A stretch of DNA of 64,000 nucleotides from contig CP136064.1 of NCBI GenBank assembly GCA_032622095.1, positions 4,336,280 through 4,400,279 on the forward strand, written 5' to 3'. The stretch comes from Siphonodentalium dalli (taxonomy: Eukaryota; Mollusca; Scaphopoda; Gadilida; Siphonodentaliidae). The notes beneath the pieces are model-generated. The model was not told where the DNA came from. It saw only the letters and a list, made by a program, of their open reading frames with translations, and did no database searches. A program made the position numbers and the translations under genes. Shown here piece by piece: positions 1 through 64,000 of this stretch (position 1 is its first letter; each line of letters starts with the position of its first letter).

Positions 1-261
1 TCAACCGATCGTCACGTGTTTGGTGTCATTCGATGGGGAATTTCTAGTACTTCAAAACGATTACCTACTTGCGGTATTATGACGATGGAGGCCAGAGATA
101 TTCGAAAAGTATGTACTGAACAACATACATATTGGCCTACATAGTAGAATATCGCCACAATACCTTACCAGAACTCTGCTAAATATTAAAGGGGCATCAA
201 ATACGAACACAATGACGCACAAATTAGCTCGATATCACGAAAATTGGCCGAGATATGGCGA

Positions 262-310
262 ATTTTCTACCCGCGTCACCAAATTTCGAGGCATGGGTGG
301 GGGTCACACC
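262..310 (+). repeat. Degenerate third module core (module C)
   Basis: The order TTCTACCCGCGTCACCAAATTT followed by a G-rich GGGTGGGGGTCAC block resembles the TTCACCAAGGTCC ... GGGGAGGGG core of module A and TTGACAAAGGTCC ... GGGGAGGGG of module B. Spacing to A and B is about 470-480 bp on either side, not 304 bp. This suggests three related modules with unequal spacers rather than a simple trimer. Similarity is short and judged by eye, so an alignment could overturn this call. Confidence 0.45.
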
Positions 311-388
311 AGAACGTTCAAACTGAATACAGAAATGTCAATAAACTATACTATAGACATTCCAATCAATTCCGCGCGATTCCCTTAT

Positions 389-418
389 TATACTTCCATA
401 TTTTAATATGGATGTATA
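389..418. repeat. AT-rich palindrome in each type I unit
   Basis: The left arm ATACTTCCATATT (390-402), a TT loop and the right arm AATATGGATGTAT (405-417) form a 13-bp inverted repeat with one mismatch. An outer T/A pair extends it to 389-418. It recurs at the same phase in all type I units. Type II has a different single mismatch in the same stem (left ATACTTTCATATT, right AATATGGAAGTAT). The palindrome sits at the type I/type II switch near 24229 and close to the phase at which array 2 starts. Confidence 0.8.
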
Positions 419-535
419 TTGTTATTCAATTTTTTATTTTTATTTTTCATTATTTATGCTACTTCTTCTTCTTAATATATTTTGTAACCCTTATATCTCA
501 GAAAGTTAAAAAGATAAATCATTGAAATTTGGTAG

Positions 536-602
536 GTATATGCACCTTGCCAAGTTACAACTGAATGAAACATTTAGGTTTATGTCCTAACTTTCTTTCC
601 AG
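536..602 (+). other. Cryptic intron-like signal pair in each unit
   Basis: A donor-like AG|GTATAT (GT at 536-537) is followed 67 bases later by a branch-like CTAAC, a pyrimidine stretch TTTCTTTCC and AG (601-602). In type II the donor becomes AG|GTATGT, closer to the animal consensus, while the acceptor tract reads TTGCTTACCAG. No exon or transcript is known, and such signals occur by chance, so this is only a possible cryptic splice pair. Confidence 0.2.
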
Positions 603-21000: not shown

Positions 21001-23791
21001 CGAAGCGCAACAGCTGGATTTGGTCTATGTGAGCGTCTTAAACATAGACAGAAGACCAAACCAGAAAATTTTGACAAAGGTCCGCTCAAATTTTTCCGGG
21101 CTAGGGGAGGGGCAAAATTTGTCCTTTTTTTTTTGTCGCCGATTTGAACCAAAATGGTTGTGAAGTATCTATATGATGTACTGAGTATCATTGTGAGTAA
21201 ATTTTATGAATCGGTTGACAAATGTAGAAATTGTGGCCCCTTCCTTTTGTTCAAGTTTACAGAAAATGCACTATGAATTTAAATTCCTTCAACCGATCGT
21301 CACGTGTTTGGTGTCATTCGATGGGGAATTTCTAGTACTTCAAAACGATTACCTACTTGCGGTATTATGACGATGGAGGCCAGAGATATTCGAAAAGTAT
21401 GTACTGAACAACATACATATTGGCCTACATAGTAGAATATCGCAACAATACCTTACCAGAACTCTGCTAAATATTTAAGGGGCATCAAATACGAACACAA
21501 TGACGCACAAATTAGCTCGATATCACGAAAATTGGCCGAGATATGGCGAATTTTCTACCCGCGTCACCAAATTTCGAGGCATGGGTGGGGGTCACACCAG
21601 AACGTTCAAACTGAATACAGAAATGTCAATAAACTATACTATAGACATTCCAATCAATTCCGCGCGATTCCCTTATTATACTTCCATATTTTAATATGGA
21701 TGTATATTGTTATTCAATTTTTTATTTTTATTTTTCATTATTTATGCTACTTCTTCTTCTTAATATATTTTGTAACCCTTATATCTCAGAAAGTTAAAAA
21801 GATAAATCATTGAAATTTGGTAGGTATATGCACCTTGCCAAGTTACAACTGAATGAAACATTTAGGTTTATGTCCTAACTTTCTTTCCAGAGTTATGGCC
21901 CTTAATCAAAATTTTTGGAAAAAGTTTGTGCCCAGATCTTCTCCTATAAGAAGCCAAGCAGCTGAATTCGGGTTACGTGACCGTGTTAACTAACGAAAGG
22001 GCACGAATCGAGAAAAATTTCACCAAGGTCCGAATACAATTTGTCGACCTGGGGAGGGGTGCAAAATTTGTCAAATTTTTTGTTGTCACCGATTCCAACC
22101 ATTTTTACTTTCGTGTATCTATACGACGTACTGATGCTACTCGTGAAAGAATTTTGTAAATCGGTTGAGAAATGGCCAAGTTATAACACATCGAAAAATG
22201 TACTAATAAAGTCCATGTGTAGAAAGTGCTTGTGCCCAGATCTTCTCCTAGTCGAAGCGCAACAGCTGGATTTGGTCTATGTGAGCGTCTTAAACATAGA
22301 CAGAAGACCAAACCAGAAAATTTTGACAAAGGTCCGCTCAAATTTTTCCGGGCTAGGGGAGGGGCAAAATTTGTCCTTTTTTTTTTGTCGCCGATTTGAA
22401 CCAAAATGGTTGTGAAGTATCTATATGATGTACTGAGTATCATTGTGAGTAAATTTTATGAATCGGTTGACAAATGTAGAAATTGTGGCCCCTTCCTTTT
22501 GTTCAAGTTTACAGAAAATGCACTATGAATTTAAATTCCTTCAACCGATCGTCACGTGTTTGGTGTCATTCGATGGGGAATTTCTAGTACTTCAAAACGA
22601 TTACCTACTTGCGGTATTATGACGATGGAGGCCAGAGATATTCGAAAAGTATGTACTGAACAACATACATATTGGCCTACATAGTAGAATATCGCCACAA
22701 TACCTTACCAGAACTCTGCTAAATATTTAAGGGGCATCAAATACGAACACAATGACGCACAAATTAGCTCGATATCACGAAAATTGGCCGAGATATGGCG
22801 AATTTTCTACCCGCGTCACCAAATTTCGAGGCATGGGTGGGGGTCACACCAGAACGTTCAAACTGAATACAGAAATGTCAATAAACTATACTATAGACAT
22901 TCCAATCAATTCCGCGCGATTCCCTTATTATACTTCCATATTTTAATATGGATGTATATTGTTATTCAATTTTTTATTTTTATTTTTCATTATTTATGCT
23001 ACTTCTTCTTCTTAATATATTTTGTAACCCTTATATCTCAGAAAGTTAAAAAGATAAATCATTGAAATTTGGTAGGTATATGCACCTTGCCAAGTTACAA
23101 CTGAATGAAACATTTAGGTTTATGTCCTAACTTTCTTTCCAGAGTTATGGCCCTTAATCAAAATTTTTGGAAAAAGTTTGTGCCCAGATCTTCTCCTATA
23201 AGAAGCCAAGCAGCTGAATTCGGGTTACGTGACCGTGTTAACTAACGAAAGGGCACGAATCGAGAAAAATTTCACCAAGGTCCGAATACAATTTGTCGAC
23301 CTGGGGAGGGGTGCAAAATTTGTCAAATTTTTTGTTGTCACCGATTCCAACCATTTTTACTTTCGTGTATCTATACGACGTACTGATGCTACTCGTGAAA
23401 GAATTTTGTAAATCGGTTGAGAAATGGCCAAGTTATAACACATCGAAAAATGTACTAATAAAGTCCATGTGTAGAAAGTGCTTGTGCCCAGATCTTCTCC
23501 TAGTCGAAGCGCAACAGCTGGATTTGGTCTATGTGAGCGTCTTAAACATAGACAGAAGACCAAACCAGAAAATTTTGACAAAGGTCCGCTCAAATTTTTC
23601 CGGGCTAGGGGAGGGGCAAAATTTGTCCTTTTTTTTTGTCGCCGATTTGAACCAAAATGGTTGTGAAGTATCTATATGATGTACTGAGTATCATTGTGAG
23701 TAAATTTTATGAATCGGTTGACAAATGTAGAAATTGTGGCCCCTTCCTTTTGTTCAAGTTTACAGAAAATGCACTATGAATTTAAATTCCT

Positions 23792-25083
23792 TCAACCGAT
23801 CGTCACGTGTTTGGCGTCATTCGATGGGGAATTTCTAGTACTTCAAAACGATTACCTACTTGCGGTATTATGACGATGGAGGCCAGAGATATTCGAAAAG
23901 TATGTACTGAACAACATACATATTGGCCTACATAGTAGAATATCGCCACAATACCTTACCAGAACTCTGCTAAATATTTAAGGGGCATCAAATACGAACA
24001 CAATGACGCACAAATTAGCTCGATATCACGAAAATTGGCCGAGATATGGCGAATTTTCTACCCGCGTCACCAAATTTCGAGGCATGGGTGGGGGTCACAC
24101 CAGAACGTTCAAACTGAATACAGAAATGTCAATAAACTATACTATAGACATTCCAATCAATTCCGCGCGATTCCCTTATTATACTTCCATATTTTAATAT
24201 GGATGTATATTGTTATTCAATTTTTATACTTTCATATTTTAATATGGAAGTATATTGTTATTCAATTTTTTATTTTTCACTATTATTATTATTATTTATT
24301 CTTAATATATTTTGTAACCCTTATATCTCAGAAAGTTTAAAAGATAAAACATTGAAATTTGGTAGGTATGTGTACCTTGCCGACCTACAGCGACTCGGGA
24401 TATTTAGGTTGGTGTCCTAACTTGCTTACCAGAGTTATGGCCCTTAAACAAAAAATTTGGAAAAAGTTTGTGCGGAGATTTTCTCCTGTAAGAAGTCAAG
24501 CAGCTGAATTCGGTTCTCGTAATCGTGTTAACTAACGAAAGGCCACGAATCGGGGAAATTTTCACCAAGGTCCGAAAACAATTTGTTGACCCGGGGAGGG
24601 GTGCAAACTTTGTCAATATTTTTCTTGTCACCGATTCCAACCATTTTTACTGTCGGGTATCTATACGATGTACTGATGCTACTCGTGAAAGAATTTTGTA
24701 AATCGGGTGAGAAATGACCAAGTTATAACACATCGAAAAATGTACTAATAAAGTCCATGTGTAGAAAGTGCTTGTGTCCCGATCTTCTCCTAGACGAAGC
24801 GCAACAGCTGGATTTGCTCTATGTGAGCGTCTTAAACATAGACAGAAGACCAAACCAGGACATTTTGACAAAGGTCGGCTCAATTTTTTCCGGGCTAGGG
24901 GAGGGGAAAAAGTTGTAAAAAAAATTCTTCTCGCTGATTTGAACTAAACTTGTTGTGAAGTATCTATAAGATGTACTGAGTGTCATTATGAGTGAATTTT
25001 ATGAATCGGTTGAGAAATGTAGAAATTGTGGCCCCTTCCTTTTTTTCAAGTTTACATAAAATGCACTATGAATTTAAATTCCT
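23792..25083. repeat. Hybrid type I/type II unit (1292 bp)
   Basis: The unit begins as type I. After TATATTGTTATTCAATTTTT (ending about 24229) it re-enters the palindrome in type II form (ATACTTTCATATTTTAAT ... GGAAGTAT) and remains type II to its end. The segment around the palindrome is therefore present twice, adding about 42 bp. This is the signature of a slightly out-of-register exchange between a type I and a type II unit. Confidence 0.9.
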
Positions 25084-28000
25084 TCAACCAATCGTCACGT
25101 GTTTGGTGTCATTCGATGGGGAATTTCTAGTACTTCTAAACGATTACCCACTTGCCGCAGTATGTCGATAGAGGCGAGAGATATTCGAAAAGTATAAACT
25201 GAACAACATACATATTGGCCTACATAGTAAAATATCGGCGCAATACCTCACCAAAACCCTGGTAAATATTATAGGGGCATAAAATACGGACACAATGGCG
25301 CAAATATTAGCTCGATATCTCGAAAATTGGCCGATATATGGCGACTTTTCTACCCGCGTCATCAAATTTCGAGGCATGGGTGGGGGTCACACCAGAACGT
25401 TCCAACTGAACACAGAAATGTCAATAAACCATACTATCGACATTCCAATCAATTCCGAACGATTCCCTTATTATACTTTCATATTTTAATATGGAAGTAT
25501 ATTGTTATTCAATTTTTTATTTTTCACTATTATTATTATTATTTATTCTTAATATTTTTGTAACCCTTATATCTCAGAAAGTTTAAAAGATAAAACATTG
25601 AAATTTGGTAGGTATGTGTACCTTGCCGACCTACAGCGATTCGGGACATTTAGGTTGGTGTCCTAACTTGCTTACCAGAGTTATGGCCCTTAAACAAAAA
25701 ATTTGGAAAAAGTTTGTGCGGAGATTTTCTCCTGTAAGAAGTCAAGCAGCTGAATTCGGTTCTCGTAATCGTGTTAACTAACGAAAGGCCACGAATCGGG
25801 GAAATTTTCACCAAGGTCCGAAAACAATTTGTTGACCCGGGGAGGGGTGCAAACTTTGTCAATTTTTTTCTTGTCACCGATTCCAACCATTTTTACTGTC
25901 GGGTATCTATACGATGTACTGATGCTACTCGTGAAAGAATTTTGTAAATCGGGTGAGAAATGACCAAGTTATAACACATCGAAAAATGTACTAATAAAGT
26001 CCATGTGTAGAAAGTGCTTGTGTCCCGATCTTCTCCTAGACGAAGCGCAACAGCTGGATTTGCTCTATGTGAGCGTCTTAAACATAGACAGAAGACCAAA
26101 CCAGGACATTTTGACAAAGGTCGGCTCAATTTTTTCCGGGCTAGGGGAGGGGAAAAAGTTGTAAAAAAAATTCTTCTCGCTGATTTGAACTAAACTTGTT
26201 GTGAAGTATCTATAAGATGTACTGAGTGTCATTATGAGTGAATTTTATGAATCGGTTGAGAAATGTAGAAATTGTGGCCCCTTCCTTTTTTTCAAGTTTA
26301 CATAAAATGCACTATGAATTTAAATTCCTTCAACCAATCGTCACGTGTTTGGTGTCATTCGATGGGGAATTTCTAGTACTTCTAAACGATTACCCACTTG
26401 CCGCAGTATGTCGATAGAGGCGAGAGATATTCGAAAAGTATAAACTGAACAACATACATATTGGCCTACATAGTAAAATATCGGCGCAATACCTCACCAA
26501 AACCCTGGTAAATATTATAGGGGCATAAAATACGGACACAATGGCGCAAATATTAGCTCGATATCTCGAAAATTGGCCGATATATGGCGACTTTTCTACC
26601 CGCGTCATCAAATTTCGAGGCATGGGTGGGGGTCACACCAGAACGTTCCAACTGAACACAGAAATGTCAATAAACCATACTATCGACATTCCAATCAATT
26701 CCGAACGATTCCCTTATTATACTTTCATATTTTAATATGGAAGTATATTGTTATTCAATTTTTTATTTTTCACTATTATTATTATTATTTATTCTTAATA
26801 TATTTTGTAACCCTTATATCTCAGAAAGTTTAAAAGATAAAACATTGAAATTTGGTAGGTATGTGTACCTTGCCGACCTACAGCGACTCGGGACATTTAG
26901 GTTGGTGTCCTAACTTGCTTACCAGAGTTATGGCCCTTAAACAAAAAATTTGGAAAAAGTTTGTGCGGAGATTTTCTCCTGTAAGAAGTCAAGCAGCTGA
27001 ATTCGGTTCTCGTAATCGTGTTAACTAACGAAAGGCCACGAATCGGGGAAATTTTCACCAAGGTCCGAAAACAATTTGTTGACCCGGGGAGGGGTGCAAA
27101 CTTTGTCAATTTTTTTCTTGTCACCGATTCCAACCATTTTTACTGTCGGGTATCTATACGATGTACTGATGCTACTCGTGAAAGAATTTTGTAAATCGGG
27201 TGAGAAATGACCAAGTTATAACACATCGAAAAATGTACTAATAAAGTCCATGTGTAGAAAGTGCTTGTGTCCCGATCTTCTCCTAGACGAAGCGCAACAG
27301 CTGGATTTGCTCTATGTGAGCGTCTTAAACATAGACAGAAGACCAAACCAGGACATTTTGACAAAGGTCGGCTCAATTTTTTCCGGGCTAGGGGAGGGGA
27401 AAAAGTTGTAAAAAAAATTCTTCTCGCTGATTTGAACTAAACTTGTTGTGAAGTATCTATAAGATGTACTGAGTGTCATTATGAGTGAATTTTATGAATC
27501 GGTTGAGAAATGTAGAAATTGTGGCCCCTTCCTTTTTTTCAAGTTTACATAAAATGCACTATGAATTTAAATTCCTTCAACCAATCGTCACGTGTTTGGT
27601 GTCATTCGATGGGGAATTTCTAGTACTTCTAAACGATTACCCACTTGCCGCAGTATGTCGATAGAGGCGAGAGATATTCGAAAAGTATAAACTGAACAAC
27701 ATACATATTGGCCTACATAGTAAAATATCGGCGCAATACCTCACCAAAACCCTGGTAAATATTATAGGGGCATAAAATACGGACACAATGGCGCAAATAT
27801 TAGCTCGATATCTCGAAAATTGGCCGATATATGGCGACTTTTCTACCCGCGTCATCAAATTTCGAGGCATGGGTGGGGGTCACACCAGAACGTTCCAACT
27901 GAACACAGAAATGTCAATAAACCATACTATCGACATTCCAATCAATTCCGAACGATTCCCTTATTATACTTTCATATTTTAATATGGAAGTATATTGTTA

Positions 28001-31000: not shown

Positions 31001-31105
31001 AGTGCTTGTGTCCCGATCTTCTCCTAGACGAAGCGCAACAGCTGGATTTGCTCTATGTGAGCGTCTTAAACATAGACAGAAGACCAAACCAGGACATTTT
31101 GACAA
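24230..31105. repeat. Tandem array 1, type II units (1246-1247 bp)
   Basis: Type II units start at 25084, 26330, 27577, 28824 and 30071, following the hybrid. They are nearly identical to each other but differ from type I by roughly 10% by eye, including GCGGAGATTTTCTCCTG for the module A start and loss of the T run, which is replaced by GTTGTAAAAAAAATTC. The TTCACTATTATTATTATTAT tract replaces the type I T-rich tract. The last unit is truncated at about phase 1040, where spacer sequence begins. Frames seen in type I are shortened or absent here, supporting a non-coding repeat. Confidence 0.95.
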
Positions 31106-34376: not shown

Positions 34377-34548
34377 CAGTATGCCCTAAGTAATCGACTC
34401 CTTAAACATAGCAGAATTATGGGTAATATTTCAGGATTTAGCGGGAAATATAGCCTGCTGACATTCATCCGAAAGCTCTCCTGAATCCCGAAAAGTTACC
34501 CATAATTCTGCTGTGTTTAAGGGGTCGATTACATAGGGCATTACTGTA
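34375..34548. mobile_element. 170-bp palindromic MITE of mariner type
   Basis: The element 34377-34546 begins CAGTATGCCCTA and ends TAGGGCATTACTG, flanked by TA on both sides (34375-34376 and 34547-34548). The inverted repeats extend about 60 bp, through AATCGAC, CCTTAAACA and GCAGAATTATGGGTAA, leaving a short centre. A TA duplication with CAGTAATGCCC-like ends fits Tc1/mariner-derived MITEs. It has no coding capacity. The matching position in the second spacer lies beyond the window, so presence or absence there is unknown. Confidence 0.85.
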
Positions 34549-34560
34549 TATCTGCGAATT

Positions 34561-34586
34561 TCTGTCTGTCTGCCTGTGTCTGTCTT
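34561..34586. repeat. Short imperfect TCTG microsatellite
   Basis: TCTGTCTGTCTGCCTGTGTC, continuing TGTCTT, is an imperfect tetranucleotide run directly after the MITE. Confidence 0.6.
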
Positions 34587-35040
34587 CTACAGAAATTACA
34601 GGAGACCATCTAGATGATACCAAAGGGTCTACTAGGGGTCACTTTTTACGAGAAATATAATTTCAAAAGTAGCCTCATTCTTAATCTTTTATTTTTGCGA
34701 ACTGATGTGTTTATGATAAACATGTATCATAATATAAGGTCTGAAGTATGCATGGGTGTAACTAAATAAATACTTCAATAGTTGTGGAACGGATTAATCG
34801 AGATAAACAAAATTACGATCGAAAAGGTGAGCCACTACTTATATTCCATGACTTTTTAAAGTTATAGATATAGTTAGAATTATTGTGGTTATGGTTACGG
34901 CTAGAGCATGGTTATGCTTATAGAAACATTTAGTATTGGGACATGGTACGGGTTGCCGATAGGTATGGTTATGTTAAGATTTGGGTTATGGGAAAGGTAA
35001 TGATTGAGCGGGGATTTGGATTGGAATATATATGATAATT
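34587..35040. other. Unannotated stretch with scattered GGTTATGG words
   Basis: No gene is recognised. Between about 34887 and 34992 words such as GTGGTTATGGTTACGG, CATGGTTATGC, TATGGTTATG and GGGTTATGGG recur at irregular spacing, possibly an eroded minisatellite. It leads into the left end of array 2. Confidence 0.4.
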
Positions 35041-35042
35041 AT

Positions 35043-35073
35043 ATGGAAGTATCAAACTTCCAATAGGAAGTTT
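35043..35073. repeat. Overlapping short palindromes at the left edge of array 2
   Basis: GGAAGT (35045-35050) pairs with ACTTCC (35056-35061). AAACTTCC (35054-35061) also pairs with GGAAGTTT (35066-35073), so the central arm can pair either way. ATATGGAAGTAT at 35041-35052 resembles the right arm of the type II unit palindrome. Recognisable array sequence starts 12 bp downstream, at 35085. Confidence 0.65.
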
Positions 35074-41000: not shown

Positions 41001-43413
41001 GCCAGAGATATTCGAAAAGTATGTACTGAACAACATACATATTGGCCTACATAGTAGAATATCGCCACAATACCTTACCAGAACTCTGCTAAATATTTAA
41101 GGGGCATCAAATACGAACACAATGACGCACAAATTAGCTCGATATCACGAAAATTGGCCGAGATATGGCGAATTTTCTACCCGCGTCACCAAATTTCGAG
41201 GCATGGGTGGGGGTCACACCAGAACGTTCAAACTGAATACAGAAATGTCAATAAACTATACTATAGACATTCCAATCAATTCCGCGCGATTCCCTTATTA
41301 TACTTCCATATTTTAATATGGATGTATATTGTTATTCAATTTTTTATTTTTATTTTTCATTATTTATGCTACTTCTTCTTCTTAATATATTTTGTAACCC
41401 TTATATCTCAGAAAGTTAAAAAGATAAATCATTGAAATTTGGTAGGTATATGCACCTTGCCAAGTTACAACTGAATGAAACATTTAGGTTTATGTCCTAA
41501 CTTTCTTTCCAGAGTTATGGCCCTTAATCAAAAATTTTGGAAAAATTTGTGCCCAGATCTTCTCCTATAAGAAGCCAAGCAGCTGAATTCGGGTTACGTG
41601 ACCGTGTTAACTAACGAAAGGGCACGAATCGAGAAAAATTTCACCAAGGTCCGAATACAATTTGTCGACCTGGGGAGGGGTGCAAAATTTGTCAAATTTT
41701 TTGTTGTCACCGATTCCAACCATTTTTACTTTCGTGTATCTATACGACGTACTGATGCTACTCGTGAAAGAATTTTGTAAATCGGTTGAGAAATGGCCAA
41801 GTTATAACACATCGAAAAATGTACTAATAAAGTCCATGTGTAGAAAGTGCTTGTGCCCAGATCTTCTCCTAGTCGAAGCGCAACAGCTGGATTTGGTCTA
41901 TGTGAGCGTCTTAAACATAGACAGAAGACCAAACCAGAAAATTTTGACAAAGGTCCGCTCAAATTTTTCCGGGCTAGGGGAGGGGCAAAATTTGTCCTTT
42001 TTTTTTTGTCGCCGATTTGAACCAAAATGGTTGTGAAGTATCTATATGATGTACTGAGTATCATTGTGAGTAAATTTTATGAATCGGTTGACAAATGTAG
42101 AAATTGTGGCCCCTTCCTTTTGTTCAAGTTTACAGAAAATGCACTATGAATTTAAATTCCTTCAACCGATCGTCACGTGTTTGGTGTCATTCGATGGGGA
42201 ATTTCTAGTACTTCAAAACGATTACCTACTTGCGGTATTATGACGATGGAGGCCAGAGATATTCGAAAAGTATGTACTGAACAACATACATATTGGCCTA
42301 CATAGTAGAATATCGCCACAATACCTTACCAGAACTCTGCTAAATATTTAAGGGGCATCAAATACGAACACAATGACGCACAAATTAGCTCGATATCACG
42401 AAAATTGGCCGAGATATGGCGAATTTTCTACCCGTGTCACCAAATTTCGAGGCATGGGTGGGGGTCACACCAGAACGTTCAAACTGAATACAGAAATGTC
42501 AATAAACTATACTATAGACATTCCAATCAATTCCGCGCGATTCCCTTATTATACTTCCATATTTTAATATGGATGTATATTGTTATTCAATTTTTTATTT
42601 TTATTTTTCATTATTTATGCTACTTCTTCTTCTTAATATATTTTGTAACCCTTATATCTCAGAAAGTTAAAAAGATAAATCATTGAAATTTGGTAGGTAT
42701 ATGCACCTTGCCAAGTTACAACTGAATGAAACATTTAGGTTTATGTCCTAACTTTCTTTCCAGAGTTATGGCCCTTAATCAAAATTTTTGGAAAAAGTTT
42801 GTGCCCAGATCTTCTCCTATAAGAAGCCAAGCAGCTGAATTCGGGTTACGTGACCGTGTTAACTAACGAAAGGGCACGAATCGAGAAAAATTTCACCAAG
42901 GTCCGAATACAATTTGTCGACCTGGGGAGGGGTGCAAAATTTGTCAAATTTTTTGTTGTCACCGATTCCAACAATTTTTACTTTCGTGTATCTATACGAC
43001 GTACTGATGCTACTCGTGAAAGAATTTTGTAAATCGGTTGAGAAATGGCCAAGTTATAACACATCGAAAAATGTACTAATAAAGTCCATGTGTAGAAAGT
43101 GCTTGTGCCCAGATCTTCTCCTAGTCGAAGCGCAACAGCTGGATTTGGTCTATGTGAGCGTCTTAAACATAGACAGAAGACCAAACCAGAAAATTTTGAC
43201 AAAGGTCCGCTCAAATTTTTCCGGGCTAGGGGAGGGGCAAAATTTGTCCTTTTTTTTTTGTCGCCGATTTGAACCAAAATGGTTGTGAAGTATCTATATG
43301 ATGTACTGAGTATCATTGTGAGTAAATTTTATGAATCGGTTGACAAATGTAGAAATTGTGGCCCCTTCCTTTTGTTCAAGTTTACAGAAAATGCACTATG
43401 AATTTAAATTCCT

Positions 43414-46400
43414 TCAACCGATCGTCACGTGTTTGGTGTCATTCGATGGGGAATTTCTAGTACTTCAAAACGATTACCTACTTGCGGTATTATGACGATG
43501 GAGGCCAGAGATATTCGAAAAGTATGTACTGAACAACATACATATTGGCCTACATAGTAGAATATCGTCACAATACCTTACCAGAACTCTGCTAAATATT
43601 TAAGGGGCATCAAATACGAACACAATGACGCACATATTAGCTCGATATCACGAAAATTGGCCGAGATATGGCGAATTTTCTACCCGTGTCACCAAATTTC
43701 GAGGCATGGGTGGGGGTCACACCAGAACGTTCAAACTGAATACAGAAATGTCAATAAACTATACTATAGACATTCCAATCAATTCCGCGCGATTCCCTTA
43801 TTATACTTCCATATTTTAATATGGATGTATATTGTTATTCAATTTTTTATTTTTATTTTTCATTATTTATGCTACTTCTTCTTCTTAATATATTTTGTAA
43901 CCCTTATATCTCAGAAAGTTAAAAAGATAAATCATTGAAATTTGGTAGGTATATGCACCTTGCCAAGTTACAACTGAATGAAACATTTAGGTTTATGTCC
44001 TAACTTTCTTTCCAGAGTTATGGCCCTTAATCAAAATTTTTGGAAAAAGTTTGTGCCCAGATCTTCTCCTATAAGAAGCCAAGCAGCTGAATTCGGGTTA
44101 CGTGACCGTGTTAACTAACGAAAGGGCACGAATCGAGAAAAATTTCACCAAGGTCCGAATACAATTTGTCGACCTGGGGAGGGGTGCAAAATTTGTCAAA
44201 TTTTTTGTTGTCACCGATTCCAACCATTTTTACTTTCGTGTATCTATACGACGTACTGATGCTACTCGTGAAAGAATTTTGTAAATCGGTTGAGAAATGG
44301 CCAAGTTATAACACATCGAAAAATGTACTAATAAAGTCCATGTGTAGAAAGTGCTTGTGCCCAGATCTTCTCCTAGTCGAAGCGCAACAGCTGGATTTGG
44401 TCTATGTGAGCGTCTTAAACATAGACAGAAGACCAAACCAGAAAATTTTGACAAAGGTCCGCTCAAATTTTTCCGGGCTAGGGGAGGGGCAAAATTTGTC
44501 CTTTTTTTTTTGTCGCCGATTTGAACCAAAATGGTTGTGAAGTATCTATATGATGTACTGAGTATCATTGTGAGTAAATTTTATGAATCGGTTGACAAAT
44601 GTAGAAATTGTGGCCCCTTCCTTTTGTTCAAGTTTACAGAAAATGCACTATGAATTTAAATTCCTTCAACCGATCGTCACGTGTTTGGTGTCATTCGATG
44701 GGGAATTTCTAGTACTTCAAAACGATTACCTACTTGCGGTATTATGACAATGGAGGCCAGAGATATTCGAAAAGTATGTACTGAACAACATACATATTGG
44801 CCTACATAGTAGAATATCGCCACAATACCTTACCAGAACTCTGCTAAATATTTAAGGGGCATCAAATACGAACACAATGACGCTCAAATTAGCTCGATAT
44901 CACGAAAATTGGCCGAGATATGGCGAATTTTCTACCCGTGTCACCAAATTTCGAGGCATGGGTGGGGGTCACACCAGAACGTTCAAACTGAATACAGAAA
45001 TGTCAATAAACTATACTATAGACATTCCAATCAATTCCGCGCGATTCCCTTATTATACTTCCATATTTTAATATGGATGTATATTGTTATTCAATTTTTT
45101 ATTTTTATTTTTCATTATTTATGCTACTTCTTCTTCTTAATATATTTTGTAACCCTTATATCTCAGAAAGTTAAAAAGATAAATCATTGAAATTTGGTAG
45201 GTATATGCACCTTGCCAAGTTACAACTGAATGAAACATTTAGGTTTATGTCCTAACTTTCTTTCCAGAGTTATGGCCCTTAATCAAAATTTTTGGAAAAA
45301 GTTTGTGCCCAGATCTTCTCCTATAAGAAGCCAAGCAGCTGAATTCGGGTTACGTAACCGTGTTAACTAACGAAAGGGCACGAATCGAGAAAAATTTCAC
45401 CAAGGTCCGAATACAATTTGTCGACCTGGGGAGGGGTGCAAAATTTGTCAAATTTTTTGTTGTCACCGATTCCAACCATTTTTACTTTCGTGTATCTATA
45501 CGACGTACTGATGCTACTTGTGAAAGAATTTTGTAAATCGGTTGAGAAATGGCCAAGTTATAACACATCGAAAAATGTACTAATAAAGTCCATGTGTAGA
45601 AAGTGCTTGTGCCCAAATCTTCTCCTAGTCGAAGCGCAACAGCTGGATTTGGTCTATGTGAGCGTCTTAAACATAGACAGAAGACCAAACCAGAAAATTT
45701 TGACAAAGGTCCGCTCAAATTTTTCCGGGCTAGGGGAGGGGCAAAATTTGTCCTTTTTTTTTTGTCGCCGATTTGAACCAAAATGGTTGTGAAGTATCTA
45801 TATGATGTACTGAGTATCATTGTGAGTAAATTTTATGAATCGGTTGACAAATGTAGAAATTGTGGCCCCTTCCTTTTGTTCAAGTTTACAGAAAATGCAC
45901 TATGAATTTAAATTCCTTCAACCGATCGTCACGTGTTTGGTGTCATTCGATGGGGAATTTCTAGTACTTCAAAACGATTACCTACTTGCGGTATTATGAC
46001 GATGGAGGCCAGAGATATTCGAAAAGTATGTACTGAACAACATACATATTGGCCTACATAGTAGAATATCGCCACAATACCTTACCAGAACTCTGCTAAA
46101 TATTTAAGGGGCATCAAATACGAACACAATGACGCACAAATTAGCTCGATATCACGAAAATTGGCCGAGATATGGCGAATTTTCTACCCGTGTCACCAAA
46201 TTTCGAGGCATGGGTGGGGGTCACACCAGAACGTTCAAACTGAATACAGAAATGTCAATAAACTATACTATAGACATTCCAATCAATTCCGCGCGATTCC
46301 CTTATTATACTTCCATATTTTAATATGGATGTATATTGTTATTCAATTTTTTATTTTTATTTTTCATTATTTATGCTACTTCTTCTTCTTAATATATTTT

Positions 46401-49400
46401 GTAACCCTTATATCTCAGAAAGTTAAAAAGATAAATCATTGAAATTTGGTAGGTATATGCACCTTGCCAAGTTACAACTGAATGAAACATTTAGGTTTAT
46501 GTCCTAACTTTCTTTCCAGAGTTATGGCCCTTAATCAAAATTTTTGGAAAAAGTTTGTGCCCAGATCTTCTCCTATAAGAAGCCAAGCAGCTGAATTCGG
46601 GTTACGTGACCGTGTTAACTAACGAAAGGGCACGAATCGAGAAAAATTTCACCAAGGTCCGAATACAATTTGTCGACCTGGGGAGGGGTGCAAAATTTGT
46701 CAAATTTTTTGTTGTCACCGATTCCAACAATTTTTACTTTCTTGTATCTATACGACGTACTGATGCTACTCGTGAAAGAATTTTGTAAATCGGTTGAGAA
46801 ATGGCCAAGTTATAACACATCGAAAAATGTACTAATAAAGTCCATGTGTAGAAAGTGCTTGTGCCCAGATCTTCTCCTAGTCGAAGCGCAACAGCTGGAT
46901 TTGGTCTATGTGAGCGTCTTAAACATAGACAGAAGACCAAACCAGAAAATTTTGACAAAGGTCCGCTCAAATTTTTCCGGGCTAGGGGAGGGGCAAAATT
47001 TGTCCTTTTTTTTTTGTCGCCGATTTGAACCAAAATGGTTGTGAAGTATCTATATGATGTACTGAGTATCATTGTGAGTAAATTTTATGAATCGGTTGAC
47101 AAATGTAGAAATTGTGGCCCCTTCCTTTTGTTCAAGTTTACAGAAAATGCACTATGAATTTAAATTCCTTCAACCGATCGTCACGTGTTTGGTGTCATTC
47201 GATGGGGAATTTCTAGTACTTCAAAACGATTACCTACTTGCGGTATTATGACGATGGAGGCCAGAGATATTCGAAAAGTATGTACTGAACAACATACATA
47301 TTGGCCTACATAGTAGAATATCGTCACAATACCTTACCAGAACTCTGCTAAATATTTAAGGGGCATCAAATACGAACACAATGACGCACATATTAGCTCG
47401 ATATCACGAAAATTGGCCGAGATATGGCGAATTTTCTACCCGTGTCACCAAATTTCGAGGCATGGGTGGGGGTCACACCAGAACGTTCAAACTGAATACA
47501 GAAATGTCAATAAACTATACTATAGACATTCCAATCAATTCCGCGCGATTCCCTTATTATACTTCCATATTTTAATATGGATGTATATTGTTATTCAATT
47601 TTTTATTTTTATTTTTCATTATTTATGCTACTTCTTCTTCTTAATATATTTTGTAACCCTTATATCTCAGAAAGTTAAAAAGATAAATCATTGAAATTTG
47701 GTAGGTATATGCACCTTGCCAAGTTACAACTGAATGAAACATTTAGGTTTATGTCCTAACTTTCTTTCCAGAGTTATGGCCCTTAATCAAAATTTTTGGA
47801 AAAAGTTTGTGCCCAGATCTTCTCCTATAAGAAGCCAAGCAGCTGAATTCGGGTTACGTGACCGTGTTAACTAACGAAAGGGCACGAATCGAGAAAAATT
47901 TCACCAAGGTCCGAATACAATTTGTCGACCTGGGGAGGGGTGCAAAATTTGTCAAATTTTTTGTTGTCACCGATTCCAACCATTTTTACTTTCGTGTATC
48001 TATACGACGTACTGATGCTACTCGTGAAAGAATTTTGTAAATCGGTTGAGAAATGGCCAAGTTATAACACATCGAAAAATGTACTAATAAAGTCCATGTG
48101 TAGAAAGTGCTTGTGCCCAGATCTTCTCCTAGTCGAAGCGCAACAGCTGGATTTGGTCTATGTGAGCGTCTTAAACATAGACAGAAGACCAAACCAGAAA
48201 ATTTTGACAAAGGTCCGCTCAAATTTTTCCGGGCTAGGGGAGGGGCAAAATTTGTCCTTTTTTTTTTGTCGCCGATTTGAACCAAAATGGTTGTGAAGTA
48301 TCTATATGATGTACTGAGTATCATTGTGAGTAAATTTTATGAATCGGTTGACAAATGTAGAAATTGTGGCCCCTTCCTTTTGTTCAAGTTTACAGAAAAT
48401 GCACTATGAATTTAAATTCCTTCAACCGATCGTCACGTGTTTGGTGTCATTCGATGGGGAATTTCTAGTACTTCAAAACGATTACCTACTTGCGGTATTA
48501 TGACAATGGAGGCCAGAGATATTCGAAAAGTATGTACTGAACAACATACATATTGGCCTACATAGTAGAATATCGCCACAATACCTTACCAGAACTCTGC
48601 TAAATATTTAAGGGGCATCAAATACGAACACAATGACGCTCAAATTAGCTCGATATCACGAAAATTGGCCGAGATATGGCGAATTTTCTACCCGTGTCAC
48701 CAAATTTCGAGGCATGGGTGGGGGTCACACCAGAACGTTCAAACTGAATACAGAAATGTCAATAAACTATACTATAGACATTCCAATCAATTCCGCGCGA
48801 TTCCCTTATTATACTTCCATATTTTAATATGGATGTATATTGTTATTCAATTTTTTATTTTTATTTTTCATTATTTATGCTACTTCTTCTTCTTAATATA
48901 TTTTGTAACCCTTATATCTCAGAAAGTTAAAAAGATAAATCATTGAAATTTGGTAGGTATATGCACCTTGCCAAGTTACAACTGAATGAAACATTTAGGT
49001 TTATGTCCTAACTTTCTTTCCAGAGTTATGGCCCTTAATCAAAATTTTTGGAAAAAGTTTGTGCCCAGATCTTCTCCTATAAGAAGCCAAGCAGCTGAAT
49101 TCGGGTTACGTGACCGTGTTAACTAACGAAAGGGCACGAATCGAGAAAAATTTCACCAAGGTCCGAATACAATTTGTCGACCTGGGGAGGGGTGCAAAAT
49201 TTGTCAAATTTTTTGTTGTCACCGATTCCAACCATTTTTACTTTCTTGTATCTATACGACGTACTGATGCTACTTGTGAAAGAATTTTGTAAATCGGTTG
49301 AGAAATGGCCAAGTTATAACACATCGAAAAATGTACTAATAAAGTCCATGTGTAGAAAGTGCTTGTGCCCAAATCTTCTCCTAGTCGAAGCGCAACAGCT

Positions 49401-50925
49401 GGATTTGGTCTATGTGAGCGTCTTAAACATAGACAGAAGACCAAACCAGAAAATTTTGACAAAGGTCCGCTCAAATTTTTCCGGGCTAGGGGAGGGGCAA
49501 AATTTGTCCTTTTTTTTTTGTCGCCGATTTGAACCAAAATGGTTGTGAAGTATCTATATGATGTACTGAGTATCATTGTGAGTAAATTTTATGAATCGGT
49601 TGACAAATGTAGAAATTGTGGCCCCTTCCTTTTGTTCAAGTTTACAGAAAATGCACTATGAATTTAAATTCCTTCAACCGATCGTCACGTGTTTGGTGTC
49701 ATTCGATGGGGAATTTCTAGTACTTCAAAACGATTACCTACTTGCGGTATTATGACGATGGAGGCCAGAGATATTCGAAAAGTATGTACTGAACAACATA
49801 CATATTGGCCTACATAGTAGAATATCGTCACAATACCTTACCAGAACTCTGCTAAATATTTAAGGGGCATCAAATACGAACACAATGACGCACAAATTAG
49901 CTCGATATCACGAAAATTGGCCGAGATATGGCGAATTTTCTACCCGTGTCACCAAATTTCGAGGCATGGGTGGGGGTCACACCAGAACGTTCAAACTGAA
50001 TACAGAAATGTCAATAAACTATACTATAGACATTCCAATCAATTCCGCGCGATTCCCTTATTATACTTCCATATTTTAATATGGATGTATATTGTTATTC
50101 AATTTTTTATTTTTATTTTTCATTATTTATGCTACTTCTTCTTCTTAATATATTTTGTAACCCTTATATCTCAGAAAGTTAAAAAGATAAATCATTGAAA
50201 TTTGGTAGGTATATGCACCTTGCCAAGTTACAACTGAATGAAACATTTAGGTTTATGTCCTAACTTTCTTTCCAGAGTTATGGCCCTTAATCAAAATTTT
50301 TGGAAAAAGTTTGTGCCCAGATCTTCTCCTATAAGAAGCCAAGCAGCTGAATTCGGGTTACGTGACCGTGTTAACTAACGAAAGGGCACGAATCGAGAAA
50401 AATTTCACCAAGGTCCGAATACAATTTGTCGACCTGGGGAGGGGTGCAAAATTTGTCAAATTTTTTGTTGTCACCGATTCCAACCATTTTTACTTTCGTG
50501 TATCTATACGACGTACTGATGCTACTCGTGAAAGAATTTTGTAAATCGGTTGAGAAATGGCCAAGTTATAACACATCGAAAAATGTACTAATAAAGTCCA
50601 TGTGTAGAAAGTGCTTGTGCCCAGATCTTCTCCTAGTCGAAGCGCAACAGCTGGATTTGGTCTATGTGAGCGTCTTAAACATAGACAGAAGACCAAACCA
50701 GAAAATTTTGACAAAGGTCCGCTCAAATTTTTCCGGGCTAGGGGAGGGGCAAAATTTGTCCTTTTTTTTTTGTCGCCGATTTGAACCAAAATGGTTGTGA
50801 AGTATCTATATGATGTACTGAGTATCATTGTGAGTAAATTTTATGAATCGGTTGACAAATGTAGAAATTGTGGCCCCTTCCTTTTGTTCAAGTTTACAGA
50901 AAATGCACTATGAATTTAAATTCCT
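43414..50925. repeat. Trimer-spaced higher-order duplication in array 2
   Basis: Units 43414 and 47170 share ATATCGTCAC and GACGCACATATT. Units 44666 and 48422 share TATGACAATGG, GACGCTCAAATT, CTACTTGTGAAAG and GCCCAAATCT. The pairs are 3756 bp apart, exactly three units, so a block of at least two units was copied at trimer spacing. Unit 44666 has a private ACGTAACC, and unit 48422 carries the TTTCTTGTATC seen in 45918, implying later changes or conversion. Confidence 0.85.
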
Positions 50926-59687: not shown

Positions 59688-62454
59688 TCAACCGATCGTC
59701 ACGTGTTTGGTGTCATTCGATGGGGAATTTCTAGTACTTCAAAACGATTACCTACTTGCGGTATTATGACGATGGAGGCCAGAGATATTCGAAAAGTATG
59801 TACTGAACAACATACATATTGGCCTACATAGTAGAATATCGCCACAATACCTTACCAGAACTCTGCTAAATATTTAAGGGGCATCAAATACGAACACAAT
59901 GACGCACAAATTAGCTCGATATCACGAAAATTGGCCGAGATATGGCGAATTTTCTACCCGCGTCACCAAATTTCGAGGCATGGGTGGGGGTCACACCAGA
60001 ACGTTCAAACTGAATACAGAAATGTCAATAAACTATACTATAGACATTCCAATCAATTCCGCGCGATTCCCTTATTATACTTCCATATTTTAATATGGAT
60101 GTATATTGTTATTCAATTTTTTATTTTTATTTTTCATTATTTATGCTACTTCTTCTTCTTAATATATTTTGTAACCCTTATATCTCAGAAAGTTAAAAAG
60201 ATAAATCATTGAAATTTGGTAGGTATATGCACCTTGCCAAGTTACAACTGAATGAAACATTTAGGTTTATGTCCTAACTTTCTTTCCAGAGTTATGGCCC
60301 TTAATCAAAATTTTTGGAAAAAGTTTGTGCCCAGATCTTCTCCTATAAGAAGCCAAGCAGCTGAATTCGGGTTACGTGACCGTGTTAACTAACGAAAGGG
60401 CACGAATCGAGAAAAATTTCACCAAGGTCCGAATACAATTTGTCGACCTGGGGAGGGGTGCAAAATTTGTCAAATTTTTTGTTGTCACCGATTCCAACCA
60501 TTTTTACTTTCTTGTATCTATACGACGTACTGATGCTACTAGTGAAAGAATTTTGTAAATCGGTTGAGAAATGGCCAAGTTATAACACATCGAAAAATGT
60601 ACTAATAAAGTCTATGTGTAGAAAGTGCTTGTGCCCAGATCTTCTCCTAGTCGAAGCGCAACAGCTGGATTTGGTCTATGTGAGCGTCTTAAACATAGAC
60701 AGAAGACCAAACCAGAAAATTTTGACAAAGGTCCGCTCAAATTTTTCCGGGCTAGGGGAGGGGCAAAATTTGTCCCTTTTTTTTTGTCGCCGATTTGAAC
60801 CAAAATGGTTGTGAAGTATCTATATGATGTACTGAGTATCATTGTGAGTAAATTTTATGAATCGGTTGACAAATGTAGAAATTGTGGCCCCTTCCTTTTG
60901 TTCAAGTTTACAGAAAATGCACTATGAATTTAAATTCCTTCAACCGATCGTCACGTGTTTGGTGTCATTCGATGGGGAATTTCTAGTACTTCAAAACGAT
61001 TACCTACTTGCGGTATTATGACGATGGAGGCCAGAGATATTCGAAAAGTATGTACTGAACAACATACATATTGGCCTACATAGTAGAATATCGCCACAAT
61101 ACCTTACCAGAACTCTGCTAAATATTTAAGGGGCATCAAATACGAACACAATGACGCACAAATTAGCTCGATATCACGAAAATTGGCCGAGATATGGCGA
61201 ATTTTCTACCCGCGTCACCAAATTTCGAGGCATGGGTGGGGGTCACACCAGAACGTTCAAACTGAATACAGAAATGTCAATAAACTATACTATAGACATT
61301 CCAATCAATTCCGCGCGATTCCCTTATTATACTTCCATATTTTAATATGGATGTATATTGTTATTCAATTTTTTATTTTTATTTTTCATTATTTATGCTA
61401 CTTCTTCTTCTTAATATATTTTGTAACCCTTATATCTCAGAAAGTTAAAAAGATAAATCATTGAAATTTGGTAGGTATATGCACCTTGCCAAGTTACAAC
61501 TGAATGAAACATTTAGGTTTATGTCCTAACTTTCTTTCCAGAGTTATGGCCCTTAATCAAAATTTTTGGAAAAAGTTTGTGCCCAGATCTTCTCCTATAA
61601 GAAGCCAAGCAGCTGAATTCGGGTTACGTGACCGTGTTAACTAACGAAAGGGCACGAATCGAGAAAAATTTCACCAAGGTCCGAATACAATTTGTCGACC
61701 TGGGGAGGGGTGCAAAATTTGTCAAATTTTTTGTTGTCACCGATTCCAACCATTTTTACTTTCGTGTATCTATACGACGTACTGATGCTACTCGTGAAAG
61801 AATTTTGTAAATCGGTAGAGAAATGGCCAAGTTATAACACATCGAAAAATGTACTAATAAAGTCCATGTGTAGAAAGTGCTTGTGCCCAGATCTTCTCCT
61901 AGTCGAAGCGCAACAGCTGGATTTGGTCTATGTGAGCGTCTTAAACATAGACAGAAGACCAAACCAGAAAATTTTGACAAAATTACACCAATGACCACTG
62001 ATGATATATTTCAACATCCATTCCTGTTCGGCGCACTGCGTTACTTGTTATATTGGCTAATGGGTAATCACTCAAAACAATGTCGGCTGTCTGTCTTGTC
62101 AATCGGCCGTAATTCTGCAGTTTTATCAAGATGCGGCTTAAAATTGACATATTTTGAGTCCAAAAACGCTCAAAATTCATTAGTTTTAGAATAGTAGTTC
62201 GTTTTGTTTTCACTTTTTTTAAAACGCGCATTTTTTACAAAAAAAATGCTCGACTTTGATATTTGAAAAACGAAACTGTGGTGTCATCCGGATAATGTTA
62301 TAACACTTCTCCGCATGGACCACGTTTTCCTAAAGCACAATCCGTCTATGCGCGGACGTTCGCTTGCAGTTCTCAATTCAATTGAAACTATTTGATATAC
62401 GTTCGCGTACCCGTAAACCATTTTTTTTATATTATATTTTTTAATTGAATGAAC

Positions 62455-62681
62455 GGGAGTCAGCGTATCCCGTCCGACGCCCCAACCTTGCCACCCCTTA
62501 GTCGCTAATTTTGGTATCATAATTTCGGAACGTGACACTTTGCGGTTTGGTATTGGTTTACCATCTGACATAGTGCATACTTTTGTTGAATTCATATCTG
62601 ACCATTTAAAAACTGTCTCTTTATCATCTGTATGTGTCACGAGTGAAAATATATGACTTTATTGTCCGACTGTTAAGACCG
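62455..62681. other. Conserved spacer block, second copy
   Basis: The partner of 31590-31816: same length and about three substitutions. The sharp contrast with the more diverged 61983-62454 segment makes it the most conserved non-array part of the window. Confidence 0.5.
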
Positions 62682-63055
62682 CGATTGCATATTTCGCATT
62701 AATTGGACGAGACGTAATGTAAAGTCTTATAACTTACGAATAGGCGACAACGTCGACGTCGTACATTCGTCCGCTAATCGGAAAATATACCAAAAATGCC
62801 TTAAAGCGCCGTCTAATTCACCACCTGCGTGTATTCAAGAATATGAATCACACCAAAATTAAGCGAATTGCATATGGAATGTGTAGATATAAGCTGCCAT
62901 GTATATATCATTTCCAGAATGCTACCATTTCATGACAATCTATTTGTTAAAATAAAACACCTTAAACTGTTGGGAACATCGCGATATAGGCAAGCGAGCA
63001 AAGAGAGTTTAATGTCGTCGTACCATACGCTATTTCGCTGTTGCGAAATGGGTGG

Positions 63056-63088
63056 TCGTTCAATGTAGCATAATTACATTGAACGACA
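63056..63088. repeat. Perfect 13-bp hairpin, SINE target site in its intact form
   Basis: GTCGTTCAATGTA (63056-63068), loop GCATAAT and TACATTGAACGAC (63076-63088) form a perfect stem. A TATA-like ATATATAAG follows. In the other spacer the SINE lies at the left arm of this hairpin and the target duplication overlaps the arm. A role as a transcription signal or structured RNA is possible but not shown. Confidence 0.8.
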
Positions 63089-64000
63089 TATATAAGTATG
63101 TTTTTATGTGAATAATGATTGTTAACTTGGTATTATGAACTTATGCATGACTGTGAAGACTTGCAATAACGTATTAAATGGTAAAATACGCGCATTCATA
63201 TCCGTATATTCCCAAGAATATCCGTCTATTTTACAAGCTCGACATGCTATATTTGTTTATGGTATTCTACCGTTTCAACACATCGGCTATTTATCATTTT
63301 GCTGGTGAGAAGGCGTATGTTCAGTTTGGTGCTATTTATGTGCACAGAAAAGGCACCATTACTCGGGAAAGCAACATACCGAAATGCATATAGATGTACG
63401 CGAATCATGTTACGTTCTCACACAATGCAGCTTTCCCAAATCCGCGCTCTTTAAAATAGAATTGGCTGCATGACTGGCCTACTTCTGATGGCACAGTGTG
63501 TTACGCACCTGTCCGATTAAGTCGCTTTGAACCCAAAATGTATACAAAATTCGCACAAGCTGTGGAAAAGTTTGCGATCTTGGACAGTCAGTACAATCGG
63601 TATAAACGTTTGTAACGACATAACGTGTCTTGACAGCATTACCTGTTATGCTATATTGATGTTTCTAAATTATATTTAATGCTTGATTCCTGATACACAT
63701 ACATAGTGACATTTCAGTGATCTGTCTAGAACGTTCCCGAGCATGATAGAACTTCAAATAAAACATATTCGCCTTTGTCCCATTCTGGTGATTTGGGCTC
63801 TTTCTTAGCATGTTACTAATTTTATAATAAGACGTAATCAAGACATGTGTTATCAGTTGTGTGAGTGATTGCCATTCGCGCATAATTATTTCATAAATAA
63901 ATATATCCGCTGCACGTAGATATAACCGTCACTTATATTACTGGCCGTTGAGATCACTGACCCGACAAAATGATAAACCAAGACTTAACAGTCTTGGCAA

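Follow-up and report, generated by a model that had tools for sequence, protein, structure and literature searches.

The 64,000-nucleotide stretch analysed here (the window) is very probably one long array of a 1252-bp satellite, element Y, split by an inserted Helitron2/Helentron-type element of a sister subtype, element X. The insert has defined boundaries with terminal structures at both, its joined flanks restore the empty site, and each satellite unit carries one 5' transposon terminus.

Satellite units, subtypes and arrays

Unit anchors occur 47 times on the + strand of the window and 0 times on the - strand. Their spacing is 1251-1253 bp in both main arrays and 1246-1247 bp between 24,310 and 30,544, with a single exceptional unit of 1290 bp. 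The first-pass annotation had described a 1.25-kb satellite in two arrays that stop at a common phase and pass into homologous spacers, as well as modules inside the unit, and all of these are real. Unit positions 144-407 resemble 448-709 at 71%; both arrays end 560 bp past the anchor, at 31,104 and 61,979 (30,875 bp apart); and the sequences that follow are homologous, with 1973 of 2064 columns identical in an alignment counted from 31,051, which hence takes in the last array bases. The same annotation missed the 1247-bp subtype, the common T6 run in which the array breaks and resumes, and the hairpin-CTAG end of spacer 1. The window is made up as follows.

1-24,223, + strand: left part of the 1252-bp array of host element Y; runs off the left window edge; anchors at 1252-1253-bp spacing; 20 copies of the 5' terminus
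24,224-35,084, + strand: element X, a 10,861-bp non-autonomous Helitron2/Helentron-like insert, recognised by its restored empty site and its termini
24,224-31,108, + strand: 1247-bp subtype array within X, about 5.5 units; right edge at 31,104-31,108, the end base being uncertain by a few bases
31,109-35,084, + strand: spacer 1, the 3' body of X; homologous to spacer 2
35,085-61,979, + strand: continuation of element Y's 1252-bp array to the right of X, 21 full units
61,980-64,000, + strand: spacer 2, the probable 3' body of host element Y; homologous to 31,109-33,939; runs off the window

Array 1 switches subtype at 24,223, from 1252-bp to 1247-bp units that are about 10% different, and its last 6.9 kb are accordingly about 10% diverged from the rest. 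Array 2, downstream of the 1247-type block, is of the 1252 type again and differs from the rest of array 1 by 0.55%. Mean divergence is 0.42% among the 19 full 1252-type units left of the insert (hybrid unit A18, described below, included), 0.43% among the 21 full array-2 units and 0.13% among the five full 1247-type units, which lie about 10% from the 1252 type. These values cover 45 full units and exclude three partial ones (at the left edge, before J1 and before J2). Host element Y thus comprises at least about 40.8 units.

Element X and its empty site

24,221-24,223, + strand: left half of the T6 target run that X interrupts, with five T at 24,221-24,225 and three T at 35,085-35,087

The 1252-bp array halts within a T6 run at 24,223 and picks up in the same run at 35,085, where an exact match to the 1252 consensus begins, in agreement with the previously proposed resumption phase of about 433 (numbering of the first-pass annotation). 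Between these points lie the 1247-type array and spacer 1, which together make up X. At the other 1252-type sites the T6 run is unbroken (40 of 40), and X adds about two extra T at the target. X therefore lies in a T run without target-site duplication, as is expected of HINE members. Joining the flanks, with gaps allowed in the alignment, gives a 1251-bp unit (A18) that matches its neighbour A17 with 1250 identities, one mismatch and one gap (1 bp, at phase 618). The flanks restore one unit, and therefore 24,224-35,084 is one insert. Carrying the array alignment leftwards from 35,085 across the hairpin gained almost nothing in score, and we do not claim such an extension.

Unit position 961, one of 28 shared variable columns picked without the hybrid unit A18, provides a marker. 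Its base is T in units A15-A18 (4/4, just left of the insert) and in all 21 full array-2 units to the right, so that T runs on across the insert; it is A in 14 of the 15 units A00-A14 and in all five 1247-type units. Two points count against the insertion reading here: the marker is one column among those 28, and units B00 and B01 have common variants that are not in A15-A18.

It might be argued that two haplotypes or loci were joined by the assembler through near-identical units, spacers 1 and 2 being alleles or unlinked copies. Units that differ by only about 0.5% do invite misjoins, and the 2.5% divergence over most of the spacer, together with insertions found in one copy, might suit alleles of a very variable species. 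However, if homologous units had been wrongly joined, the join should keep the register and should not leave matched transposon-like termini in one T run. A misjoin could still lie elsewhere within array 2, but it would not touch the insertion of X. We consider an assembly artefact improbable.

Terminal structures of element X

24,226-24,253, + strand: 5' terminus of X (12-bp ATIR at 24,226-24,237, pairing arm at 24,242-24,253)
35,041-35,052, + strand: 3' ATIR, matching the inverse-complemented 5' ATIR at 11 of 12 bases in its 1247 form and at all 12 in its 1252 form
35,054-35,073, + strand: 3' hairpin of X, 8 pairs; stops 11 nt short of the terminus
35,081-35,084, + strand: CTAG, the final bases of X; the next base is the T of the target

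Element X starts with TTATAC in a T|T site, and any further copies with its 3' end would be expected to start at ATACTTYCATAT. Copies of the 5' terminus number 47, one per unit, and there is one copy of the 3' terminus in the window. The 5' hairpin has 13 pairs within 24,224-24,254 and was equalled in stability by none of 200 shuffles; for the 3' hairpin, 2 of 200 folded at least as well. The ATIR combined with either the 5' or the 3' hairpin arose in 0 of 5000 shuffles of the ends, a result to be read with the caution that the terminal signature was noticed only once the boundary had been found and that the combined tests had their thresholds chosen after the fact. The ATIR-plus-3'-hairpin test, run on every 3' end in the window, passes only at 20 adjacent positions (35,073-35,092), and a perfect hairpin with 8-bp arms followed by CTRRT is found only once in the window, at the end of spacer 1. 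Two single features count against the assignment: the ATIR by itself arises in 25 of 5000 shuffles, and the inverted similarity between the ends by itself was equalled in 13 of 200.

ATIRs of the Helitron2 type are expected to measure 8-15 bp, with the 5' copy 0-4 bp from the end and the 3' copy subterminal, upstream of the hairpin. In X they are placed in this way, the 5' ATIR lying 0-2 bp from the end and the 3' ATIR ending 32 bp from the terminus; the accessible portions of the respective papers give the latter distance as about 20-30 bp (PMC3627910) and, for Fusarium Helitron2, as 20-40 bp (PMC5148889). The 5' hairpin with the ATIR and the 3' terminal hairpin that characterise HINE are both present. 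A canonical Helitron (Helitron1) would start with 5'-TC and insert at A|T; X does neither, and only its 3' hairpin and CTRR end are Helitron1 features. The termini of X are mixed in that CTAG is a Helitron1-type end, which counts against the assignment. The accessible part of PMC4067079 does mention a proto-Helentron that combines 5'TT with 3'CTAG, but it inserts between A and T.

Instead of a transposon, break repair that switched templates at AT-rich palindromes could have placed a copy of the block in the array. Both joins do lie in AT-rich sequence beside hairpins, and satellite junctions at palindromes are described for one mollusc satellite and the wasp PSR chromosome (PMC5139131, in the part available). 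Yet break repair does not predict that the two ends should together show the ATIR, the two hairpins and CTAG, and we hold it to be about as unlikely as a misassembly.

The two spacers and the recurrence of array plus spacer

31,577-31,628, no strand: divergence step between the spacers (10.3% before, 2.5% after)

Spacer 1 terminates in the hairpin and CTAG precisely at the array boundary. It shows no similarity to the unit beyond one chance-level match, and has two insertions absent from spacer 2. Divergence is 9.9% next to the junction and, within the spacer, 10.3% followed by 2.5%, with a change point at 31,590 (likelihood ratio 43.9, versus a maximum of 15.2 in 300 permutations). The low divergence past 31,590 might reflect a spacer conserved for some function, but the sharp step is a better fit to recombination between element lineages, though this is not proved.

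The first-pass annotation had proposed three nested levels with a constant period. Modules, units, arrays and a recurring homologous spacer all stand; the array-plus-spacer super-unit is the poorer reading, in view of the empty site, the marker and the termini. Nor is the period constant, and because the arrays are unequal (array 1 at least 31.1 kb, array 2 26.9 kb), the spacer recurs only once in view. A tandem super-repeat should display two or more periods of similar size, with even divergence throughout the repeat; the window displays one recurrence and uneven divergence at the junction and along the spacer, against 0.55% between 1252-type units. A true super-repeat, in which array and spacer were tandemly duplicated by unequal crossing-over of misaligned arrays and homogenised later, is the least likely explanation: homologous spacers after arrays at equal phase agree with it, as unequal exchange predicts recurring junctions, but the middle array should then end like the first (the final units are of the 1247 type in array 1 and of the 1252 type in array 2), it would be by chance that the array breaks and resumes in one T6 run, and neither the unequal lengths nor the non-uniform divergence fits. 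Tandem duplication was dropped on account of the coinciding break phases. Under the insertion model, phase 433 is simply the insertion site, and the forecast of re-entry there belongs to the super-repeat model.

Coding potential and relatives

Counting against the proposed assignment, no Rep/Helicase or transposase was found: none of 14 reading-frame segments from the unit and the spacer produced a credible Pfam match (two matches far below the cut-off, nothing else). Rfam gave no match at gathering score (one sub-threshold match in the spacer, E 0.2), and the window contains no detected tRNA. The longest unit frame, 141 aa, exceeds those of 50/50 shuffles (maximum 139) and 200/200 shuffles (maximum 140). 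It is absent from the longest frames of the 1247 unit, the longest of which (118 aa) is a different frame, open in both subtypes. In the spacer, the longest frame reaches 121 aa, a length inside the range of the shuffles. Because of these frame, Pfam, Rfam and tRNA results, we treat the unit as non-coding, as a working assumption and not a proven property; it could still hold a coding relic.

Searches for relatives gave 0 matches in phages, viral contigs (two exact patterns) and genome contigs (one exact pattern), eukaryotic genomes being outside their scope. Literature searches found nothing on the unit sequences and, on the unit period, nothing but an unrelated plant paper; a search for satellite monomers with a Helitron 5' end returned none, which proves no absence.

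Proposed mechanism and its significance

Our reading builds on one complete element, the 3' end and 5' start of Y lying beyond the window. Each unit carries the 5' terminus (ATIR and hairpin) of what would be a non-autonomous Helitron2/Helentron-type element, without its 3' terminus. The last unit of an array always gives way at the same phase to a long 3' body (the spacer); that of X is closed by the 3' ATIR, a hairpin and CTAG. With 5.5 units of the 1247-bp sister subtype and its 3' body, element X probably entered a T run of element Y, splitting its array into arrays 1 and 2; spacer 2 would be Y's own 3' body. We infer that X moved by rolling-circle replication with the Rep/Helicase of a helper, starting at one of several 5' ends and stopping at the single 3' end. 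Arrays may have grown by rolling-circle replication past a missing terminator, together with unequal exchange. Spacer 2 is predicted to close with an ATIR, hairpin and CTAG some 1.0-1.15 kb beyond the window, and the model does not require it to re-enter an array at phase 433.

More tentatively, though this is less likely than not, every satellite unit might be a working transposition start. If so, each jump could carry a different number of units, since an array would have many possible 5' ends but only one 3' stop, and an array could give rise to new arrays of any length, even within other arrays. The entry route would be the T6 site that each unit has just downstream of its 5' terminus, and X, which has 5.5 units and begins exactly at a unit 5' terminus, would be such a product.

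The window links rolling-circle-type transposons directly with a long, homogenised satellite of classical appearance: all 47 units in view retain the 5' transposon end, and the empty site of a nested copy can still be read. It would thus represent a concrete case of Helitron-type elements able to start, spread and interrupt satellite arrays. It also cautions that a recurring array-plus-spacer pattern can stem from nested insertion and not from a higher-order tandem repeat.

Comparison with known systems

According to the accessible parts of PMC3627910 and PMC4067079, Helentrons of the Helitron2 group and the non-autonomous HINE (DINE-1-like) share with X a T-run target without target-site duplication, a 12-bp ATIR (subTIR) near the 5' end that forms a hairpin, and a 3' ATIR upstream of the 3' hairpin; some copies also contain tandem repeats, as here. 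Unlike them, X has a CTAG end, no coding part seen and a 3' body of about 4 kb, and the repeat unit contains the 5' terminus itself.

The Pacific oyster Cg_HINE, as far as the available text of PMC7492417 describes it, likewise has a satellite-like array inside a HINE, subTIRs of 11-12 bp with a pairing arm, a 3' palindrome, and a TT target without target-site duplication. However, its monomers measure about 140-180 bp, whereas the units here measure 1.25 kb; its arrays mostly have five monomers or fewer (maximum 29.3), compared with at least about 40.8 units in Y; and its array lies between left and right flanks, whereas here the 5' end is in each unit.

Multiple 5' ends with a single 3' end are reported for plant tandem Helitron arrays (Xiong et al. 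2016, via PMC12628747), and multiple 5' termini and self-insertion for Fusarium Helitron2 (PMC5148889). Many 5' ends and one 3' end are thus common to those systems and to the window; in the accessible parts of both sources this layout is ascribed to rolling-circle replication losing the terminator, and self-insertion is discussed. What sets the present case apart from them, on the same portions of those sources, is the Helitron2-type termini, a nested sister element of another subtype, and units homogenised to about 0.4-0.5%, like a classical satellite.

Satellite units, arrays and spacers

A 1.25-kb satellite is present in the window (64,000 bases, 0 N), where its anchor motif has 47 copies on the + strand and 0 on the − strand. 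The anchors are spaced by 1251–1253 bp in the main arrays and by 1246–1247 bp between 24,310 and 30,544, with two exceptions: a single unit measures 1290 bp, and a gap of 4,588 bp spans the spacer. Array 1 lies to the left of the first of two spacers and array 2 between them.

about 31,109–35,084: spacer 1, 3.98 kb
start near 61,980: spacer 2, homologous to spacer 1

Both arrays end 560 bp past an anchor, and the aligned part of the spacers is identical in 1973 of 2064 columns. Together with the anchors, these values confirm the satellite, arrays and homologous spacers of the first-pass annotation; its resumption phase of about 433 (in its own numbering) also proved correct. Its proposed super-repeat of about 31 kb, array plus spacer, is not supported. 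The two array ends are 30,875 bp apart, but the array lengths are unequal (at least 31.1 kb versus 26.9 kb), and therefore the period is seen once only.

Divergence was calculated as the pairwise mean for 45 full units: 19 of the 1252 type from array 1 (including A18, the hybrid unit interrupted by the insert described below), 21 from array 2 and five of the 1247 type from the right end of array 1. It is 0.42% within the first set, 0.43% within the second and 0.55% between them; most variants shared among 1252-type units are confined to one array. The five 1247-type units are 0.13% apart from one another and differ by about 10% from all other full units. The 1252-type units of both arrays belong to a single stock, to which the intervening 1247 block is foreign.

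Within array 2, an incipient three-unit higher-order repeat occupies 42,641–50,152 (divergence of 0.1% for B06/B09, 0.0% for B07/B10 and 0.2% for B08/B11), and units A05, A08 and A10 of array 1 are identical. The unit at 21,768–23,019 contains two modules (unit positions 144–407 and 448–709) that are 71% alike. Since the junction between array and 3' body, at phase about 560, cuts the second module, the unit rather than the spacer seems to have kept the older continuous sequence. The 1252 unit also has a 141-aa open frame (21,990–22,412), a length that none of 200 shuffles reached; it has no Pfam match, and the 1247 unit does not have it among its longest frames.

The spacers and junctions differ in several small features. 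Spacer 1 carries a SINE-like insertion (about 32,195–32,474) with a poly-A tail and a duplicated flank close to AAATGGGTGRTC, for which spacer 2 has the empty site. Its head presumably resembles the 5' end of U2 snRNA; Rfam gave no U2 match. An insertion of ~0.5 kb (about 32,680–33,178), absent from spacer 2, is flanked by TATA-like repeats and has inverted ends with a G run and a C run, CCAGGGGG...CCCCCTGG. Past the reach of spacer 2, at about 34,379–34,544, lies a hairpin MITE-like element, which we take to be hAT-like, with 61-nt arms (89% complementary), ends CAGTA.TGCCC and an 8-bp flanking repeat (7/8 match). A 21-bp tandem duplication at about 33,498–33,541 is single-copy in spacer 2. 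Junction 1 (31,095–31,115) contains a short palindrome, TTTTGACA-A-TGTCAAAA, at the site of which junction 2 (61,970–61,990) lacks 7 bp. The SINE-like and MITE-like insertions, like the satellite itself, point to a eukaryotic host, which by resemblance may be an animal and perhaps a mollusc.

A probable insertion of an arrayed element into an array

The 1252-type sequence halts at 24,223, where the 1247 type starts, and is back at 35,085, which delimits the insert X.

24,224–35,084: insert X, 1247-type array plus spacer 1, 10,861 bp

Both breaks lie within one T run, and the other 1252-type sites, 40 of 40, have six T there (T6); a 45-bp duplication, also found by Tandem Repeats Finder, is left at the 24,223 changeover. 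When 23,020–24,223 is joined to 35,085–35,131, the resulting 1251 bp align to the neighbouring unit A17 with 1250 identical positions, a single mismatch and a single gap. The window has 40 copies of the 25-base sequence around the restored site. Unit position 961 is T in A15–A18 (4/4) and in 21/21 full array-2 units; it is A in 14/15 of A00–A14 and in 5/5 1247 units. With T on both sides of X, the T-bearing run of units therefore carries on across the insert. We treat this marker as supporting evidence only, because it was chosen out of 28 shared variable columns and because units B00 and B01 of array 2 carry variants in common that A15–A18 lack. There is a small chance of an assembly error inside array 2.

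Termini of the insert

X starts with TT ATACTTTCATAT TTTA ATATGGAAGTAT, folding as a 13-pair hairpin (0/200 shuffles equally stable). Its end consists, in order, of ATATGGAAGTAT (35,041–35,052), C, the hairpin AAACTTCC-AATA-GGAAGTTT (35,054–35,073; 2/200 shuffles equally stable), AAAAATT and CTAG (35,081–35,084). An asymmetric terminal inverted repeat (ATIR) alone is not convincing, because 25 of 5000 shuffles have one and a simpler inverted-similarity scan of the ends is equalled by 13 of 200. Of 5000 mononucleotide shuffles of X's ends, none combined a correctly placed ATIR of at least 11/12 with either a 5' or a 3' hairpin, at thresholds fixed once the structure was known. When all 3' ends in the window were scanned for ATIR plus 3' hairpin, only 35,073–35,092 succeeded. 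Perfect hairpins with 8-bp arms are scarce: 6 are counted on the + strand and 7 on the − strand, most of them found in both counts. A list of 7 includes one near the window end, and CTRRT follows only the 3' hairpin of X. From these termini we infer that X probably moved by rolling-circle transposition.

Many 5' ends and one 3' end

The 5' terminal hairpin has 47 copies in the window, 20 left of X, 6 inside it and 21 to its right; it is invariant in each of the two subtypes (41 and 6 copies). There is one 3' end. According to the available text of PMC12628747 (after Xiong et al. 2016), plant Helitron arrays combine several 5' ends with just one 3' end, which is explained there by rolling-circle replication once the 3' terminator is lost; that of PMC5148889 reports multiple 5' termini for Fusarium Helitron2 and discusses self-insertion. 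The arrays of the window resemble both in their multiple 5' ends. Because of the 47 5' ends versus one 3' end, and of these parallels, each satellite unit may be read as a truncated element. The full-length form would start at 30,460 and comprise the final, incomplete unit and spacer 1 (4,625 bp including later insertions). X and the host element Y, with its 1252-type array and spacer 2, would be two arrayed elements of this kind, X being nested in Y.

Divergence and the 3' body of the host element

X and Y differ in 128 of 1294 columns beside the junction (9.9%). The spacers differ in 49 of their first 475 aligned columns (10.3%) and in 39 of the other 1536 (2.5%), with a sharp change point at 31,590 (support 31,577–31,628; likelihood ratio 43.9 versus at most 15.2 in 300 permutations). 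A single tandem duplication, for which one age is expected, is at odds with these three values along X and Y. Instead, the step probably reflects recombination of the 3' bodies between element lineages whose 5' parts had already diverged.

Spacer 2 is read as the putative own 3' body of Y. By comparison with spacer 1, it has 1,145 bp left to its 3' terminus, or nearer 1.0 kb if the MITE-like hairpin element is absent, and an ATIR-hairpin-CTAG end is predicted at that distance. No array at phase 433 should follow, because that phase is simply the T6 site of X's insertion. No relatives were found in the phage, viral-contig and genome-contig collections searched.

Comparison with Helitron2 and HINE elements

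X fits the descriptions of Helitron2 and of non-autonomous Helentron-related elements (HINEs) in the available portions of the published texts. Helitron2 ATIRs are 8–15 bp long; the 5' copy lies 0–2 bp inside the 5' end and belongs to the 5' hairpin, the 3' copy lies about 20–30 bp inside the 3' end and precedes a hairpin, and one family inserts after TTTT with no target-site duplication (PMC3627910). HINEs insert into T-rich targets and vary in how many terminal T they carry; some copies contain tandem repeats. Their palindromic subTIRs measure 12–15 bp and lie 2–4 nt from the 5' and 38–60 bp from the 3' terminus, and a palindrome is found 8–35 bp before the 3' end (PMC4067079). Oyster HINEs combine satellite-like arrays with such termini (PMC7492417), and many oyster satellites are linked to Helitrons (PMC8268682). 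A proto-Helentron has 5'TT and 3'CTAG and inserts between A and T (PMC4067079); the CTAG end of X is its Helitron1-like part.
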